Positions 3,551-63,999 of a DNA stretch of 64,000 nucleotides are shown here, piece by piece (the stretch's first letter is position 1; every line of letters starts with the position of its first letter). The position numbers were made by a program, and so were the translations under genes. This DNA comes from Solibacillus sp. FSL H8-0538. GTDB taxonomy: Bacteria > Bacillota > Bacilli > Bacillales_A > Planococcaceae. The notes beneath the pieces were generated by a model, which made no database searches, was not told the origin of the DNA, and saw only the letters and a list, made by a program, of their open reading frames with translations. The stretch spans positions 2,471,001-2,535,000 of the forward strand of contig NZ_JBBOPI010000001.1 of NCBI RefSeq assembly GCF_038003525.1, given 5' to 3'.

Positions 3551-3614
3551 ATTAGAAAGACACAACTCGCCCAAAATAGAGCGAGTTCATGTCCCTAGTT
3601 ATCCACTGAAAAAA
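3551..3614 (+). repeat. Type 1 palindromic repeat, copy a (shortened)
   Basis: The copy begins ATTAGAAAGACAC and contains hairpin A (AACTCGC and GCGAGTT arms). It then jumps to TTATCCACTG and an A-run, so only the right arm of hairpin B survives. It lies just downstream of the secDF terminator, in the gap before recJ. Confidence 0.7.
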
Positions 3615-3648
3615 AAGCAAGATATGCTACATGTGCATATCTTGCTTT
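3608..3648 (-). terminator. Intrinsic terminator after secDF
   Basis: A 13-bp perfect stem, AAGCAAGATATGC with its complement around an 7-nt loop, is followed on the minus strand by a run of eight T. It lies 12 bp after the secDF stop. Confidence 0.9.
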
Positions 3649-13193: not shown

Positions 13194-13281
13194 ATTAGAA
13201 AGACACATCTCGCCACAAAACAGGGCGAGATGAAGTACTTTATTATGTGATGAAGAAAAAATACTTTCTTAACCACTAAAA
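13194..13281 (+). repeat. Type 1 palindromic repeat, copy b
   Basis: ATTAGAAAGACAC is followed by hairpin A (ATCTCGCC with GGCGAGAT). The TATTATGTGATGAAG spacer and hairpin B right arm CTTTCTTAACCAC with an A-run come next. Hairpin A differs from copy e by an A-T to T-A swap that keeps the pair. It fills the gap between ruvA and the terminator of the upstream gene. Confidence 0.75.
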
Positions 13282-13309
13282 GAAAGACCGCCTCATACGA
13301 AGACGGTCA
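13278..13309 (-). terminator. Intrinsic terminator after the kinase-like gene
   Basis: GACCGTCT pairs with AGGCGGTC around a 7-nt loop (one G-T pair). It is followed on the minus strand by TTTCTTTTAG. It lies 35 bp after the gene stop and touches repeat copy b. Confidence 0.65.
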
Positions 13310-14189: not shown

Positions 14190-15034
14190 TGCTGTGAGTG
14201 TGGAGGCATCATGTGCGGAGGCATTGGCATCATGTGCATAGGATACGGGCTCATTTGAGGCATTTGGTGGCAAGGATTTGTCGCGTGTTCAATTTGGCGG
14301 ATTTCATTATAATAATTTTGCACTTGTTGTTCTTTGTCAGAGCATTTTTGGCAACCTGTAGACTCTTCTCGCTGAAGTGGTGCTACATACTGCGGCTGCT
14401 CGTCTGTCCGTATCCCGTGACAGCAGGAGCAAAAATGCATCGGCATCGGCATCGGCATTGGCATTGGCATTGGCTGCGGATAAAACTGTGGATGCATGGC
14501 TGGTTGCTGAATATATATATGCGGCATTTCAAATTGCGGCTGCATTTGGGGCATCATTTGCGGTTGTGGTTGTGGTTGCACTGGCATTGGAGGTGGCATC
14601 ATCGGCTGTGCTGGTGCCTGCATGATAGACTGCTCAATGGTTGGCGCGAAATTAACATGCGTTTGCTGCCATTGTGGCATTTGTTGTGGCATTGGCATGG
14701 GTTGTGGCATTGGCATGGGTTGTGGCATTGGCATTGGCTGTGGCATTGGTGGCATCTGTGGCTGAAAATAAATATCCCCTTGCCAAGTAGGCATTTCTGG
14801 AGTGAAACTCGGTTTCATCTCCTCCTTTACAACATGTGGAGTTTTTGGAGCTTCCTTCACTTTCTCCTTTTTAGCAGCCGCTGCCGCCTCAGGTAAAAAA
14901 ATTTCCATGCCGGGTACAATATAATCCGGGTTTGCTAAATGATTGTTTAAACGTTTTAATTCATCAAAGCCAATGGAATACTGCTTGGCAATCTTCCATA
15001 ATGTATCGCCCTTTTGTACAATATGAATACGCAC
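14177..15034 (-). CDS. safA: Spore coat morphogenetic LysM protein SafA
   Basis: The 285-residue protein opens with a LysM domain, residues 2-49 (IHIVQKGDTLWKIAKQYSIG...NPDYIVPGMEIFLP), very like B. subtilis SafA. SafA is the inner-coat hub recruited by SpoVID. The middle and C-terminal parts are low complexity, rich in Met, Pro and Gln, with about four PMPMPQ units near residues 95-120 and a PMPMPM run near 190-200. Cysteine clusters FCSCCHG and GCQKCSD follow. It uses GTG behind AAAAGGGGGAAG. CATATGATA just upstream (15057-15065) fits a sigma-E/K -10 element, but no good -35 is seen. Confidence 0.88.
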   Translation of the reverse strand: MRIHIVQKGDTLWKIAKQYSIGFDELKRLNNHLANPDYIVPGMEIFLPEAAAAAKKEKVKEAPKTPHVVKEEMKPSFTPEMPTWQGDIYFQPQMPPMPQPMPMPQPMPMPQPMPMPQQMPQWQQTHVNFAPTIEQSIMQAPAQPMMPPPMPVQPQPQPQMMPQMQPQFEMPHIYIQQPAMHPQFYPQPMPMPMPMPMPMHFCSCCHGIRTDEQPQYVAPLQREESTGCQKCSDKEQQVQNYYNEIRQIEHATNPCHQMPQMSPYPMHMMPMPPHMMPPHSQQWHC

Positions 15035-21385: not shown

Positions 21386-21750
21386 AAAAAACATCCCCCT
21401 TGTAATTTTCTTTGTTATCTCAGTCTTCTTAATTTTCAGAAAACCGATAACGTGTATTTTAATATATCAAATATTCTTGGAAATATAAAGAAGAAATATG
21501 AATTTACGAGAAAAACTACACAAATTGTACTACTAGTCATTATCGAAATTCTATTTTTCAAATATTGATAGTGACATGAACAGGATGTTTTTGATAGCTT
21601 AGGTGTACTTATAGAAACGATTGTAACTTGTATAATTACAAGTAGTCATGAGGTTGAAAGTTACATAGGAGAATGTTGGAGTCGGAAAGAAAGATGTCTC
21701 TGATGCAGCAGGAATTACGGTGTTGGATATTAGTGGCTCTAAGTGGGAAC
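21386..21750. other. Gene-free region upstream of oppA
   Basis: This AT-rich stretch should contain the oppA promoter, but I found no convincing -35/-10 pair. A plus-strand frame opens at 21673, but it runs into the type 2 repeat and has no recognisable product. A small inverted repeat (ACTTGTA/TACAAGT) lies near 21626-21644. Confidence 0.5.
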
Positions 21751-21900
21751 AAAAGCGCTGTAGAATCCGAAGTGAAGGCGCTCTTTACCTTTGCCCGTGG
21801 ACTGACCGCGACCTCGAGGGGCTGGCGCTTTCGCCTAGACGTTACATTTACATAATTAAATGTTACTCACAAGGCGAAATATTATTATTTCCTTAACAAC
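21751..21900 (+). repeat. Type 2 structured repeat, copy i (5' part deleted)
   Basis: The copy starts AAAAGCGCTG and shares CCGAAGTGAAGGCGCTCTTT, GACCTCGAGGGGC and GCGCTTTCGCCTAGACG with copy ii. The segment between the left arm and CCGAAG is missing, so only a 7-bp AAAGCGC/GCGCTTT closing helix can form. Bases 21841-21900 match 41941-42000 at 47 of 60 positions, so the repeat unit includes this AT-rich tail. Confidence 0.8.
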
Positions 21901-25779: not shown

Positions 25780-25970
25780 GTTATTCACTCCAATAAAGTT
25801 ATCTTTACTAGTATAGCAAGTTTCTCATTATTTTTCCCTTAAAACGTAATACAAATGTCGTGCAATAAATACTATAGAAAATTTCAAGTATTCATACATA
25901 GGTAACAACCTAAATCCGCCATACTTTGTGGCAACGGTTGTTTGATCGTCATCACGCCGACCAATACCAC

Positions 25971-26992: not shown

Positions 26993-27107
26993 TAAAATGC
27001 ACCTCCTCTTAGACTCAGACTCGCCCGGAATTGCAGGTGACCAATCAATCGGTACTTAAAACCTGTTCAGCGCGGTTGTAGTAGCACGGGTGCTACAAAC
27101 AATAACA
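26993..27107 (-). promoter_or_regulatory. L21 ribosomal-protein leader
   Basis: The 5' untranslated region of rplU contains a hairpin TGTAGCACCCGTGCTACTA. It continues CGCGCTGAACAGGT, ATTGGTCACCTGCAATTC and GGGCGAGTCTGAGTCTAAGA up to the ribosome-binding site. ACAGGT and ACCTGC can pair. Both position and these sequence blocks match my memory of the Firmicutes L21 leader, presumed to be bound by L21 for autoregulation. No covariance model was run. Confidence 0.8.
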
Positions 27108-28329: not shown

Positions 28330-28422
28330 ATTAGAATGACGTATCTCGCCACAAAAGTAGGGGAAGATGAGGTCCTTTATTATGTGGTTGAGAATATTAT
28401 TATTTCTTAGCCGCAAAAAAAA
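28330..28422 (+). repeat. Type 1 palindromic repeat, copy c
   Basis: ATTAGAATGACG is followed by a degraded hairpin A (ATCTCGCC then GGGGAAGAT). The spacer CCTTTATTATGTGG and hairpin B (GTGGTTGAGAATA with TATTTCTTAGCCGC) follow, then eight A that are also the T-tract of the minD terminator. Confidence 0.75.
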
Positions 28423-28459
28423 GCTGAGCAAAAGTGAAAATCCACTTTTAGCTCAGCTC
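28415..28459 (-). terminator. Intrinsic terminator after minD
   Basis: AGCTGAGC pairs with GCTCAGCT, extended by an inner AAAGTG/CACTTT helix. It is followed by eight T on the minus strand. It lies 11 bp after the minD stop and ends the mre-min cluster. Confidence 0.93.
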
Positions 28460-37722: not shown

Positions 37723-37813
37723 CTTAGATAGACTCAACTCGACCTAAATAGGGCGAGTTCTTGCCCTTACTTCTGTGGATGAGAAAGGTATATTTTTTCA
37801 CCCACTAAAAAAA
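37723..37813 (+). repeat. Type 1 palindromic repeat, copy d
   Basis: CTTAGATAGACTC is followed by hairpin A (AACTCG...CGAGTT). The spacer GCCCTTACTTCTGTGG and hairpin B left arm GTGGATGAGAAAG with partner TTTTTTCACCCAC come next. The A-run is shared with the T-tract of the valS terminator. Confidence 0.75.
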
Positions 37814-37836
37814 TGCCCTAGATATCTAGGGCATTA
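37805..37836 (-). terminator. Intrinsic terminator after valS
   Basis: A 12-bp perfect palindrome AATGCCCTAGAT/ATCTAGGGCATT is followed by TTTTTTTAG on the minus strand, 7 bp after the valS stop. Confidence 0.92.
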
Positions 37837-40537: not shown

Positions 40538-40797
40538 AAAACTCCTATCGTCTCTAAAAAGGACGAAGGAGTTTTAAATTATATTCGCGGTACCACCTTT
40601 ATTCCGAGCACGAAAAGTGGCGCTCAGCTCTTAATTCGGTAACGGTGTTTAACCGGCTTTAGCTACTGTTAGTTCACGAAAGCTGCTCCCAGGCTACATT
40701 CAAATGGTTGCGTTGTAGAAACTTTTCAGCTACCGTTTCTTCTCTAAACAAGCAAAATCATTTTACTCTTCCTAATCTTTGCATCAATTATTTAACT
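40538..40797 (-). promoter_or_regulatory. T-box leader of valS
   Basis: The conserved T-box core AATAAAGGTGGTACCGCG is at 40586-40603 on the minus strand. Upstream, GAGAAGAAACGGTAGCTGAA (AG and GNTG boxes of Stem I) and GAATGTAGCC are visible. The likely specifier GTA, a valine codon, is at 40695-40697. The competing terminator AACTCCTTCGTC/GACGATAGGAGTT with a T-run is at 40538-40576. Uncharged tRNA-Val should stabilise the antiterminator and allow valS expression. Confidence 0.95.
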
Positions 40798-41689: not shown

Positions 41690-41820
41690 AATTATGAGTA
41701 ATTTAGAAAGACACATCGATTCCATATGAATAATAGAGCCATTTCGCCCACGGTTTTTAACAAGGTATAACGCATGTTCCGCCTCTTTGTAGCTATTTAT
41801 AAATTGATTAACAATGAACA

Positions 41821-42000
41821 AAAGCGCTAAAGCGCCTGCTTAGCCCCGACAAGTGCTGGAGAGCCCGAAGTGAAGGCGCTCTCTTTGCCTTCGCCCGAGG
41901 GATAGAAGCGACCTCGAGGGGCAGGCGCTTTAGCCTAGACGTTGCATATACTTTTTTAAAAGTTGTCCACATGGCGAAATTTTATAATTTCCTTAACAAT
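41821..42000 (+). repeat. Type 2 structured repeat, copy ii (most complete)
   Basis: Left arm 41827-41839 and right arm 41921-41933 are a perfect 13-bp inverted repeat. Inside are a GTGAAGGC/GCCTTCGC stem (41870-41877 with 41887-41894, one G-T pair) and a CGAGG/CCTCG stem (41896-41900 with 41912-41916). The core ends GCCTAGACG. A 60-bp AT-rich tail shared with copy i follows, and the unit then abuts type 1 copy e. No reading frame of note. Confidence 0.85.
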
Positions 42001-42091
42001 AAAAAAGACACAACTCGCCCAAAAGCGGGCGAGTTGATGTCCTTACTTATATGGATGGGAAAGTTATCCTTTCTTATCCACCAAGAAAAAA
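42001..42091 (+). repeat. Type 1 palindromic repeat, copy e (best preserved)
   Basis: AAAAAAGACAC, hairpin A (9-bp AACTCGCCC/GGGCGAGTT), spacer GATGTCCTTACTTAT and hairpin B (ATGGATGGGAAAG with CTTTCTTATCCAC), then an A-run next to the hemL stop. On the minus strand hairpin A is followed by GTCTTTTTTATT, so this copy may itself terminate the hem transcript; no other hemL terminator is seen. Confidence 0.85.
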
Positions 42092-42098
42092 TAACAAT

Positions 42099-43388
42099 TT
42101 AGCGTGCAAGCTTTGCAAACACCTTATGGAAAGCTTCTACTGTTTTAGCGATTTGTTCTTCTGTATGTGCAGTTGAGATAAATAAGCCCTCAAATTGTGA
42201 TGGTGGTAGGAAGATTCCTTCTTCCGCCATTAATTTAAAGTATTCCGCAAATAATTCTAAATCAGATGTTTTTGCTGATTCAAAATCTACTACATCTTCA
42301 TTTGTAAAGAAGTAGCCAATCATTGATCCAGCACGGTTTACTGTATGCGGGATATTGTATTTCGTTGCTGCCTCGCGGAAACCAGCTTCAAGTTGGTCTC
42401 CTAACTTCGTGAAGTACATGTACGATTCTTTGTTTAAACGAGATAATGTTTCGTATCCTGCCGTCATTGCAAGCGGATTACCCGATAACGTACCTGCTTG
42501 ATAAATAGGTCCAGATGGGGCAATTTGCTCCATAATTTCACGTTTACCGCCGAATGCTCCTACAGGAAGTCCACCACCGATTACTTTGCCTAAGCAAGTA
42601 AGGTCCGGCTTAATGCCGAAGTATTCTTGTGCACAGCCGTAACCTACACGGAAGCCTGTCATTACTTCATCAAAAATAAGAACCGTCCCGTTTGTTTCTG
42701 TTAATTCGCGTAAGCCTTGGAGGAAGCCTGGTTGTGGTGGCACAACCCCCATATTCCCTGCGACTGGCTCTAAAATAACTGCTGCTAAATCTTTGCCGTA
42801 TTTTTCGAACACAAGTTTCGCTGACTCTAAATCATTGTAAGCAACTGTTAATGTGTTTTTCGCAATATCTGCTGGAACACCAGGGCTATCAGGTAAACCA
42901 AGTGTAGCTACACCAGAACCCGCTTTAATTAATAATGAATCGCCATGACCGTGGTATGAACCTTCGAATTTCAGGATTTTGTCTCGACCAGTATAGCCAC
43001 GAGCTAAGCGTAATGCTGACATTGTTGCCTCTGTACCAGAAGATACAAAACGAATCATTTCAACTGAAGGCAGGCGGTCCATTACAAGCTTTGCTAATTT
43101 ATTTTCAGAAAGTGTTGGCGCACCAAATGAAGCACCTTTTGTTGCTTGCTCCTGGATTGCTGCAACTACTTCAGGATGTGTATGACCTAAAATTAGTGGG
43201 CCCCAAGATAATACATAGTCAATATATTCATTACCATCGATATCTTTAATAACTGCACCGTGACCAGATTCCATGAAGATTGGTTCCATGTTTACTGATT
43301 TGAATGCACGCACTGGGCTGTTTACACCACCTGGCATTAAATCAATTGCTTCTGTAAATGCTTGTTTTGAGTTTTCATATGAACGCAT
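42099..43388 (-). CDS. hemL: Glutamate-1-semialdehyde 2,1-aminomutase
   Basis: The 429-residue PLP enzyme makes 5-aminolevulinate from glutamate semialdehyde. It has [15 protein letters not shown] near residue 18, [16 protein letters not shown] near 116, [10 protein letters not shown] near 244 and the PLP lysine in [17 protein letters not shown] near 267. It starts one base after the hemB stop and is the last gene of the hem operon. Confidence 0.97.
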
Positions 43389-53016: not shown

Positions 53017-53103
53017 ATTAGAAAGACATGCCTTGCTGAAAATAAGGCAAGTCGGCGTCCTCCTTTTGTTGTATTAAAAGTTTATACTTCTTCACAACGA
53101 AAA
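53017..53103 (+). repeat. Type 1 palindromic repeat, copy f (divergent)
   Basis: ATTAGAAAGACATG is followed by a changed hairpin A (GCCTTGC with GGCAAG). Two pairs differ from copy e on both sides and still pair. The spacer CCTCCTTTTGTTGT and hairpin B remnant AAAAGTTTATACTTCTTCACAAC follow. Lies between the SLH gene and the upstream exported protein. Confidence 0.6.
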
Positions 53104-53106
53104 TGG

Positions 53107-53137
53107 AGATGGCATGTAGGGACCCCTACATGCCTCT
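53107..53137 (-). terminator. Hairpin, probable terminator after the unknown exported protein
   Basis: GGCATGTAGGG pairs perfectly with CCCTACATGCC almost without loop. It lies 6 bp beyond the stop. The following minus-strand sequence CATCTCCATTTTCG is only weakly T-rich, so termination is uncertain. Confidence 0.5.
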
Positions 53138-53142
53138 CTTAA

Positions 53143-62344: not shown

Positions 62345-62467
62345 AAGCGCATTCGCGCCCGTTTGCACGCGACAGATGCTTGCGAGCCCGAAGCGAAAGT
62401 AAACGCTCCACCACTTTCGCCCGAGGGATCGAAGCGACCTCGAGCGTGCGGCGCGAATGCCTAGACA
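62345..62467 (+). repeat. Type 2 structured repeat, copy iii (sequence-divergent, structure kept)
   Basis: Arms GCATTCGCGCC (62349-62359) and GGCGCGAATGC (62450-62460) form 11 perfect pairs. GCACGC (62365-62370) and GCGTGC (62444-62449) form 6 more. The inner stem GCGAAAGT/ACTTTCGC (62393-62400 with 62413-62420) has 8 pairs. The shared blocks CGAGCCCGAAG, CGCCCGAGGGAT, GAAGCGACCTCGAG and GCCTAGAC are conserved. The paired arms differ in sequence from copy ii. Confidence 0.85.
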
Positions 62468-62472
62468 TTATC

Positions 62473-62573
62473 AAAAAGTTATACTTTCTTATCTCTTTAG
62501 ATAGGCCTATCTCCCCCCACATAGAGCGAGATTAGATGGTTAAGAACGTTATACTTTGTTAACCACAAAAAAA
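62473..62573 (+). repeat. Type 1 repeat copy g with an extra hairpin-B remnant
   Basis: AAAAAGTTATACTTTCTTATC (62473-62493, shown minus its last base as a hairpin-B half) is followed by a complete but condensed copy. TTTAGATAGG, ATCTC...GAGAT hairpin A, then hairpin B GGTTAAGAACGTTATACTTTGTTAACC with an A-run. The spacer between hairpins is deleted. The rest of the 62246-62723 gap holds only type 2 copy iii and an AT-rich promoter-like stretch. Confidence 0.65.
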
Positions 62574-63212: not shown

Positions 63213-63304
63213 CTTAGAAAGACATATCTCACCCCAAAACAGGCCCAGTTGTTCTCCTTTATGACGTGGATGAGAAAGTTATACTTTCTTATCCACCAAA
63301 AAAA
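63213..63304 (+). repeat. Type 1 palindromic repeat, copy h
   Basis: CTTAGAAAGACAT with a degraded hairpin A (ATCTCACC then GGCCCAGTT), the spacer CTCCTTTATGACGTGG and a nearly perfect hairpin B (GTGGATGAGAAAG with CTTTCTTATCCAC), then seven A. It lies between convergent stops of the unknown gene and the metallo-hydrolase gene. Confidence 0.75.
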
Positions 63305-63348: not shown

Positions 63349-63999
63349 TTATTGTAAGGAGTTCGCTTTCGCTTCGGCCTTATATTCAGTGCCTTTTACG
63401 CGATATGTTTTTCCATCTGTTGTCACAATAATCGTACCAGACTGTGCCGTTGTATAAATTTTGGAATGGACCGCTTTTAAATTACTTATAACCTTTGAAT
63501 GCGGGTAGCCATACTCATTGTCTTTCCCATAGCTTAAAACCGTAACGTTGGGTTTGACCTTTTGTAAAAAGGCTAGAGAATTACTTGTACTTGACCCATG
63601 TTGTCCGGCCTTCAGTACCGTCGCAGCCACATTATATTTAGCTGCAATGGCTTCTTCCACTTCCACACTAGCGTCACCCGTGAATAAAAACGACACATCG
63701 TTATATGTAACCTTCAGTACAATGGAGGCATCATTCGTACCATATGAATTTGGATTTACGTGGAGAACTTGTACATGTAAGGAAGAATCGAAATTTATTT
63801 TAGTTCCTACTTGAGCATTACTATAGCGTATTTTATTTTGAGCTACTTTATTTAATACTGCTTCATTTGTCGTTGTTAAATGCGCTTTCCCACTATTGAT
63901 AAAATGGTCCACTGGAAATTCGTCAAGTATTGTCAGGAATCCACCAATATGATTGGCATCAGGGTGACTTACAACGACCGTATCAATCCTTTTTATATG
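63349..63999 (-). CDS. ComEC-like metallo-beta-lactamase-fold protein, C-terminal part, cut by window edge
   Basis: The last 216 residues of a secreted or membrane-anchored metallo-hydrolase of the ComEC C-terminal type; the start is beyond base 64000. Visible motifs are VVVSHPDANHIGGF near the window edge (metal site), VSFLFTGDASVEVEEAI, VLKAGQHGSSTSNSLAFL and SYGKDNEYGYPHSKVI. The canonical HxHxDH becomes HxDxNH, so metal binding may differ. The C-terminus ends in a short repeat-like segment with Tyr and Lys. Confidence 0.8.
   Translation of the reverse strand, partial: HIKRIDTVVVSHPDANHIGGFLTILDEFPVDHFINSGKAHLTTTNEAVLNKVAQNKIRYSNAQVGTKINFDSSLHVQVLHVNPNSYGTNDASIVLKVTYNDVSFLFTGDASVEVEEAIAAKYNVAATVLKAGQHGSSTSNSLAFLQKVKPNVTVLSYGKDNEYGYPHSKVISNLKAVHSKIYTTAQSGTIIVTTDGKTYRVKGTEYKAEAKANSLQ

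Follow-up and report, generated by a model that had tools for sequence, protein, structure and literature searches.

The window analysed here, a stretch of 64,000 nucleotides (64 kb) of a Solibacillus genome, carries eight copies (a to h) of a small hairpin repeat, the type 1 element, together with elements of a second kind, type 2. The range 28330-28459 is made up of type 1 copy c, a T-tract and a terminator hairpin. Read on the minus strand, the end of minD (a gene name checked through its relatives) is followed by the hairpin, eight T residues, the left hairpin B and the right hairpin A of the element; in this gene-strand sense copy c has GCGG at its left end and CTAA at its right end. The features considered are the following:

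28331 to 28414, minus strand: type 1 copy c (cmsearch, 86 bits; bounds partly by analogy with the empty-site junction)
28415 to 28422, minus strand: target T-tract of the minD terminator, an A-run on the plus strand (an A-run is already present in the empty site elsewhere in the genome)
28422 to 28458, minus strand: minD terminator hairpin (-20.9 kcal/mol)
3552 to 3606, minus strand: type 1 copy a, left-end hairpin truncated (cmsearch)
3614 to 3648, minus strand: terminator hairpin beside copy a (-18.8 kcal/mol)
13195 to 13276, minus strand: type 1 copy b (cmsearch)
13286 to 13308, minus strand: hairpin beside copy b (-12.0 kcal/mol)
21747 to 21897, minus strand: shorter form of type 2, downstream of a terminator (bounds by reading)
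37724 to 37805, minus strand: type 1 copy d (cmsearch)
37812 to 37835, minus strand: terminator hairpin beside copy d (-15.0 kcal/mol)
41816 to 41997, minus strand: type 2 element adjoining copy e on its right-end side (bounds by reading)
42000 to 42081, minus strand: type 1 copy e, left end without a hairpin (cmsearch)
53018 to 53098, minus strand: type 1 copy f (cmsearch)
53106 to 53138, minus strand: hairpin beside copy f, behind an interrupted tract (-22.0 kcal/mol)
62385 to 62494, minus strand: element whose left end (GATAAGAAAGTATAAC) is type-1-like and whose body is type-2-like (approximate, by eye; repeat family D6)
62497 to 62566, minus strand: type 1 copy g, degenerate, without a hairpin (33.4 bits)
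63214 to 63296, minus strand: type 1 copy h (cmsearch)

A hairpin of -12 to -22 kcal/mol adjoins five of the eight copies (a, b, c, d and f); none is present at e and g, and that at h is poor (-10.4 kcal/mol over 54 nt). The initial annotation had read the A-run of copies a, c and d as the T-tract of a minus-strand terminator and had placed the end of copy b at a terminator, and the hairpins listed above, with the T-tract lying between hairpin and element in a, c and d, bear out both statements. Copies e and h, described as lying within a few dozen bases of minus-strand stop codons, are found about 18 nt and about 53 nt from such codons (ORFs 42099-43388 and 63349-63912, respectively). The type 2 element at 41816-41997 terminates in the hairpin AGGCGCTTTAGCGCTT (41822-41837) followed by TTGTTC. 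At 62385-62566, the element resembling both types abuts the right end of copy g and may represent a chimera or a stacked pair. The window further contains a T-box leader (40556-40788), a ribosomal L21 leader (27007-27087), a match to Bacillaceae-1 RNA (25894-25960; 36.7 bits at a gathering score of 35) and, inside an ORF at 14437-14776, dense 12-base tandem repeats resembling GGCATTGGCATG (family D1). Rfam models run over copies c and e gave nothing above the gathering score.

The type 1 element is about 83 bp long and occurs in at least 173 copies in the Solibacillus genome. A covariance model built on 12 copies yielded at least 150 matches of at least 58.6 bits in this genome (scores were computed for 150 of 3740 candidates). 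The stretches around these matches contain 173 distinct copies, 167 of them with at least 50 bits, secondary opposite-strand matches and duplicates being left out. Since the exact-core matches at C1:332118, 482700 and 608095 lie outside this set, the total number is higher. On the gene strand, hairpin B forms the left and hairpin A the right part of the element, which ends in hairpin A and TTTCTAA. Two subfamilies, GTGGATAAG and GTAGATAAG, carry the 14-mer GATAAGAAAGTATA, a third one is GTGGTTAAG, and one subfamily has GTTAAG instead of GATAAG. A search for solo ends at loci of the Solibacillus genome gave 56 right and 13 left cores, the latter nearly all variants of the element. A DnaA-box function of hairpin B was considered and rejected: TTATCCAC occurs in one subfamily and the others have TTAACCAC or TTATCTAC. 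At four places (L045:497, L084:2001, L092:2001 and L075:2001) type 1 lies directly upstream of an apparent ribosome-binding site and start codon, with the A-run entering it.

Genome-wide enrichment beside terminators, the absence of which the initial annotation had named as a refutation, is present. By simple scoring, 78 of the 173 copies have a hairpin on the A-run side, as compared with 6/172 on the other side, 5/171 at 300 nt further and 4/173 in shuffled sequence. When folding energy is used, with a threshold of -10 kcal/mol, the hairpin is found at 104 of 155 copies, the corresponding controls being 16/155 (other side), 24/155 (300 nt further) and 11/155 (shuffled); the 155 copies are the 157 with at least 60 bits minus two that failed on arm or flank. 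The adjacency is thus one-sided, and its spacing is regular, with 8 nt between the hairpin base and the element in 56 of 72 clear cases. A stop codon is faced by 91 of the 104 copies with a hairpin, at a median distance of 44 nt from the model end (own ORF calls); in these copies the order is gene, terminator, T-tract, hairpin B and hairpin A, as the initial annotation proposed for the transcripts. No hairpin better than -8 kcal/mol is found at 47 of the 155 copies; most of them have kept the A-rich tract, and copies without a recognisable hairpin contain on average 5.3 A in 7 positions as against 5.9.

The border between element and target DNA can be seen at one locus. A single type 1 copy (L033/L144) is inserted in an IS200 element, of which the two other full copies in the genome (L142 and L143) are free of type 1. 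The empty site reads AAAAGA TAAAATAA GCCGCTTTAGCGG, and in the filled site AAAAGA is followed by TTAGAAAGACAC...CTTATCTAC and then by TAAAATAAGCCGCTTTAGCGG. At this locus the A-run belongs to the target DNA, the insert measures about 83 bp and no target sequence is duplicated. While the T-tract assignment of the initial annotation stands, its description of the run as the terminal part of the element does not hold at this site, where the empty paralogues already possess it. The contrary view, that the A-run is element DNA, had been suggested by copies that have the run but no hairpin, and is ruled out by this empty site, at one locus. Neither here nor across the 155 copies is there a signal of target duplication, and a classic MITE was rejected on these grounds. 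The landing site in IS200 consists of a hairpin and a T-rich tract that run antisense to tnpA; the landing site is accordingly defined by structure rather than by the end of a gene. Taken with the enrichment, the fixed spacing and intact IS91-family transposons of two clades that behave alike (see below), the duplication-free paralogous empty site strongly supports the first of the two options in the initial annotation, namely that type 1 targets terminators on insertion.

The second option was that type 1 forms part of the 3'-end machinery, either as a selected back-up terminator or as an RNA-stability structure downstream of the primary terminator. The order of elements in the 91 copies would suit such a role, as would TGTCTTTCT, which directly follows hairpin A on the minus strand, and a terminator scan (18 sites found, 14.7 expected) picked up hairpin A of copy e as resembling a terminator. 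A back-up role nevertheless appears unlikely, as type 1 is abundant in this genome and nearly absent from the rest of the family. The exact core occurs in 3 of 260 other family genomes, with one copy each in G018, G091 and G252, and all three copies follow a hairpin and T-tract by reading. The model gave weak matches in G013 (two) and G018 (one), of which the G013 match L039 resembles a chance terminator; a more diverged pair of type 1 elements lies at one place (L150 and L152). The pattern search at order level took in the same 261 genomes as that at family level and did not widen the sample. In plasmids and phages, type 1 gave no match by blastn, exact left-hairpin patterns had none in genome and viral contigs (from which records near the window were possibly excluded), and a piece of contig C2 had none in plasmids. 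No type 1 was present in 20 orthologous minD gaps that were read out of 80 fetched; the terminators there are unoccupied and offer no alignable empty junction, and six weak model matches at minD ends (20.8-27.3 bits) look like the terminator itself.

Further points speak against a back-up role. Certain copies lie upstream of start codons, the copy in IS200 is antisense to its gene, and type 2 elements and intact IS91 transposons occupy the same kind of place. Mismatches in the paired arms are mostly decay-like, double changes that keep the pairing are found chiefly at subfamily positions, and mismatches outside the two subfamily positions show no plus-strand preference. An RNA function was also considered on the basis of a G.U asymmetry and rejected: the 157 copies contain 229 G.T and 161 A.C cells, but two subfamily positions account for 117 of the G.T cells, and without these G.T is the rarer of the two. 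Folding with RNA parameters favours the minus strand (the plus strand is lower in 49 of 157), whereas DNA parameters favour neither strand. The terminator-like appearance of hairpin A with TGTCTTTCT would fit the right end of a transposon that resembles its target.

Mobilisation by an enzyme of the IS200/IS605 type (Y1) has to be weighed as well, given that the genome carries three IS200 tnpA copies and a fragment (Y1_Tnp). The IS200/IS605 group likewise has hairpin ends and makes no target duplication. However, the ends of the resident IS200, CCCCCCTGCTATGCCGGGGG and CCACCAGTTATACTGGTGG, share only the short loop AGTTATACT with type 1 (three copies, compared by eye), and one IS200 copy is itself a type 1 target, which leaves this explanation with very little probability.

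Type 2 is a repeat of about 200 bp with at least 40 matches in the Solibacillus genome (40 of 96 candidates scored). A hairpin of -11.8 kcal/mol or better precedes the left end in all 14 copies examined there, as compared with hairpins of -8 or below in 6 of 14 stretches taken 300 nt away; in four of the 14 cases the hairpin is supplied by the right end of a type 1 element, so that elements are stacked at these places. Type 2 has matches in 85 of 261 family genomes and in 11 of 19 genera, copy numbers being lower bounds with three candidates scored per genome. In these relatives, 16 of 20 copies lie behind a hairpin of -8 kcal/mol or below, and 5 of 20 control stretches do (20 of 28 loci were counted, seven being dropped for a poor left end and one as a duplicate). 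On the gene strand most copies end in the hairpin GGCGCTTTAGCGC and the T-rich TTTTGTTC; type 1 and type 2 thus both close with a hairpin and a T-rich stretch of 7-8 nt. In Lysinibacillus fusiformis S4 (L152 5893, plus strand) a type 2 element lies at the minD terminator, the place taken by type 1 in the window, so that the terminator of one gene has served two times as a landing site.

In genome G253, the type 2 left end opens an element of 1590 bp, two identical copies of which lie behind two different terminators. This element encodes an IS91-family transposase of 404 aa (NF033538, 281 bits at a cut-off of 125) with the domains PF04986 (Y2_Tnp) and PF14319 and the motifs HIH and YIGRY. Intact transposases score 281-304 bits, with HxH and YxxxY present in the G253 and G152 proteins, and relatives were found in 11 of 261 family genomes, the Solibacillus genome included. 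Set apart by identity to the query alone and not by a tree, they form clade 1 (48-100% identity: G253, G210 with seven copies, G237, the Solibacillus relic and fragments in G236 and G082) and clade 2 (33-35%: G152 with four copies, G195, G001, G050 and G098). The relic is the one IS91 gene of the Solibacillus genome; it belongs to clade 1, is broken in frame and is part of an element some 1.4 kb long that lies behind a terminator; the preceding gene was taken by eye for sufB. A clade 2 transposase was not found in this genome, and type 1 consequently has no matching enzyme there now.

The ends connect the small repeats with these transposons. In the ISCR naming, as given in the accessible part of PMC13393415, terIS denotes the end that lies towards the transposase promoter and oriIS the opposite one; left and right are used here. 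The left end of type 2, G..TAGGAAATTATAAA and TGTGGATAAC, and its right end AGGCGCTTTAGCGCTTTTGTTC are both as in the intact elements of G210 and G237, whose right end, AGAGGCGCTTTAGCGCTTTTGTTC, is also that of type 2 in the Solibacillus genome. Moreover, type 2 is found in 6 of 6 clade 1 genomes and in 79 of 255 others (p 0.001). Near the left end of clade 1 transposons and of many type 2 copies (L261-L263, L284, L285, L106 and others) lies TGTGGATAA, which resembles a DnaA box. Clade 2 left ends start with (A/C)AAGATAAGAAAGTATA, and in five genomes they have the exact 14-mer GATAAGAAAGTATA in common with the type 1 left end GTGGATAAGAAAGTATAAC; the longest run shared in 5000 shuffles was 12. 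The right ends of type 1 (AAGGACA-stem-TGTCTTTCTAA) and clade 2 (AAGGACC..GGTTTTTCTTA; in G152, AAAGGACC-stem-TTTTTCTTA) are only broadly alike by eye, with a pattern of AAGGAC or AAGGTC, a stem and TTTYTWA. By their ends, type 2 and type 1 look like gene-less derivatives of clade 1 and clade 2, respectively.

The intact transposons occupy sites of the same kind. Among the 15 distinct left ends of clade 1 (15 of 16 rows, one duplicate flank being left out), 13 are preceded by a hairpin of -8 kcal/mol or below, as are 4 of 14 controls. For clade 2 the figures are 5 of 8 and 2 of 7, a weak contrast on hairpin energy alone, since the sites are few and the controls not empty. Of the three clade 2 left ends without such a hairpin, two (L288 and L302) follow the apparent right end of another element. 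At L299, where the row counted is the first of three left ends and not that of its own transposase, the second and third left ends each lie directly behind an apparent element right end. At all 23 sites of both clades, 6-9 of the last 9 bases before the left end are T. Two IS91 copies in G210 (L294 and L307) have the same left flank and different right flanks, perhaps due to a rearrangement or a one-ended event. Outside the family, nine of 40 rows listed from a search of plasmids (2796 records) were sampled, namely five of ten Bacilli rows, three of which represent one insertion site and were counted once, and four from Piscirickettsia. The three Bacilli sites, in Lactobacillales (Pediococcus, Lacticaseibacillus and Enterococcus avium), all follow a hairpin of -13 to -21 kcal/mol; the transposases are about 51% identical to that of G152, and the elements end in a hairpin and TTTTCTTA. 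In the distant comparison with Piscirickettsia, four IS91 copies have 3-5 T in the last 9 bases and a hairpin of -8 or below in one case of four, with the boundary guessed from the point where the copies stop agreeing.

The likeness of the ends to those of IS91 transposons also largely refutes an origin of type 1 as a relic of group IIC intron mobility, in which RNA-based insertion would have occurred at terminators. Such introns do use intrinsic terminators as insertion sites, according to the accessible part of PMC4424553, but the genome has no match to the reverse transcriptase and intron maturase models PF00078 and PF08388, and this origin is hardly credible. Equally improbable is untargeted insertion with survival only in gene-free spots marked by terminators: type 1 copies are mostly intergenic, but the one-sided adjacency, the 8-nt spacing, the landing at element right ends and the A-rich tracts of hairpin-less copies would be left unexplained. 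Selection against insertion in genes could add to the intergenic enrichment, not to one-sidedness or spacing.

We consider it probable, at about 0.82, that the small type 1 repeats belong with the IS91-family transposons (HUH/Y2, rolling-circle) as non-autonomous relatives and land at terminators. Against this count the copies that lack a hairpin, the missing matching mobiliser in this genome, right ends of type 1 and clade 2 that are only broadly alike, the GTTAAG subfamily, the rarity of type 1 in other family genomes, the single locus with a filled and an empty type 1 site, flank controls that also contain hairpins, and the fork split placed by eye (see below). The sequence comparisons are best read as placing both repeats, as non-autonomous members, in an IS91 branch of the Bacilli that targets terminators. 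HUH enzymes cleave single-stranded DNA next to hairpins. As the right end of the element and the target have the same form, a terminator may be mistaken for a right end, and we infer that the target is recognised through this mimicry. The transposase would take a site of hairpin and T-tract for a copy of its own right end, cut the single strand on the 3' side of the T-tract and attach the element there by its left end. With its right end the element provides such a site anew, and further elements can therefore land behind it. The host terminator and its T-tract are left intact, so that landing is probably harmless.

The orientation of the copies suggests a single-strand step in insertion. With a fork split at 1.85 Mb that was placed by eye after the copies had been listed, and gene calls partly based on short ORFs, 96 of 104 hairpin copies agree with the assumed fork as compared with 284 of 373 co-directional long ORFs at the same loci (p 3e-5). 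Of the type 1 copies beside a start codon, 28/33 agree with the assumed fork, whereas gene direction alone predicts 24%, and agreement is seen for 15 of 20 chromosomal copies that lack a hairpin and face a start. Across all copies without a hairpin, agreement (39/45) is no different from the ORF baseline (p 0.12). To judge from this orientation, the target would be used as single-stranded DNA on the lagging-strand template. More specifically, an IS91 branch of the Bacilli might read terminators, as a lagging-strand hairpin with an 8-nt T-tract, as its own right end, the right end being a terminator mimic, with stacking and more than 170 gene-less copies as the outcome; for this full form of the proposal we regard the chances as about even.

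If true, this would be a case of a DNA transposon landing at transcript ends, it would provide a structural rule for target choice by IS91, and it could account for part of the unnamed small hairpin repeats in Bacillales. Hairpins behind terminators may then be transposon ends instead of regulatory RNA, and a tool for inserting DNA behind genes without breaking them is suggested. To our knowledge, safe-site landing at transcript ends is known only from group IIC introns, other elements using tRNA genes. In the titles and abstracts searched, with subscription papers mostly outside, insertion of IS91-family elements or small repeats at intrinsic terminators was unreported, which is weak evidence of novelty.

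Several known systems can be compared. The REP/BIME and GTAG/CGTC repeats (PMC3733652), bcr1 of Bacillus cereus (named in PMC3733652) and the stem-loop families of PMC2267715 are likewise small repeated palindromic intergenic DNA; the accessible parts of these papers give no terminator rule for them. Group IIC introns share the landing at intrinsic terminators (PMC4424553, accessible part) and differ in being RNA-based and dependent on a reverse transcriptase, which was not found in this genome. With Helitrons, as described for Helraiser in the accessible part of PMC4778049, the repeats share the lack of target duplication, a hairpin near the 3' end and AT-rich targets, and at the junction seen with the empty site the final CTAA of type 1 precedes a T. 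Helitrons are, in contrast, eukaryotic and encode a Rep-helicase protein, and terminator targeting is absent from that part of PMC4778049.

The closest likeness is to the IS91 family itself, in the transposase family and in two unlike ends, intact members sharing both ends with type 2 and the left end with type 1. IS91 transposition makes no target duplication, and its targets are the tetranucleotides GAAC/CAAG. The repeats, at about 83 bp for type 1 and about 200 bp for type 2, differ from the family in lacking any gene, and the target here is a hairpin with a T-tract instead of GAAC/CAAG.
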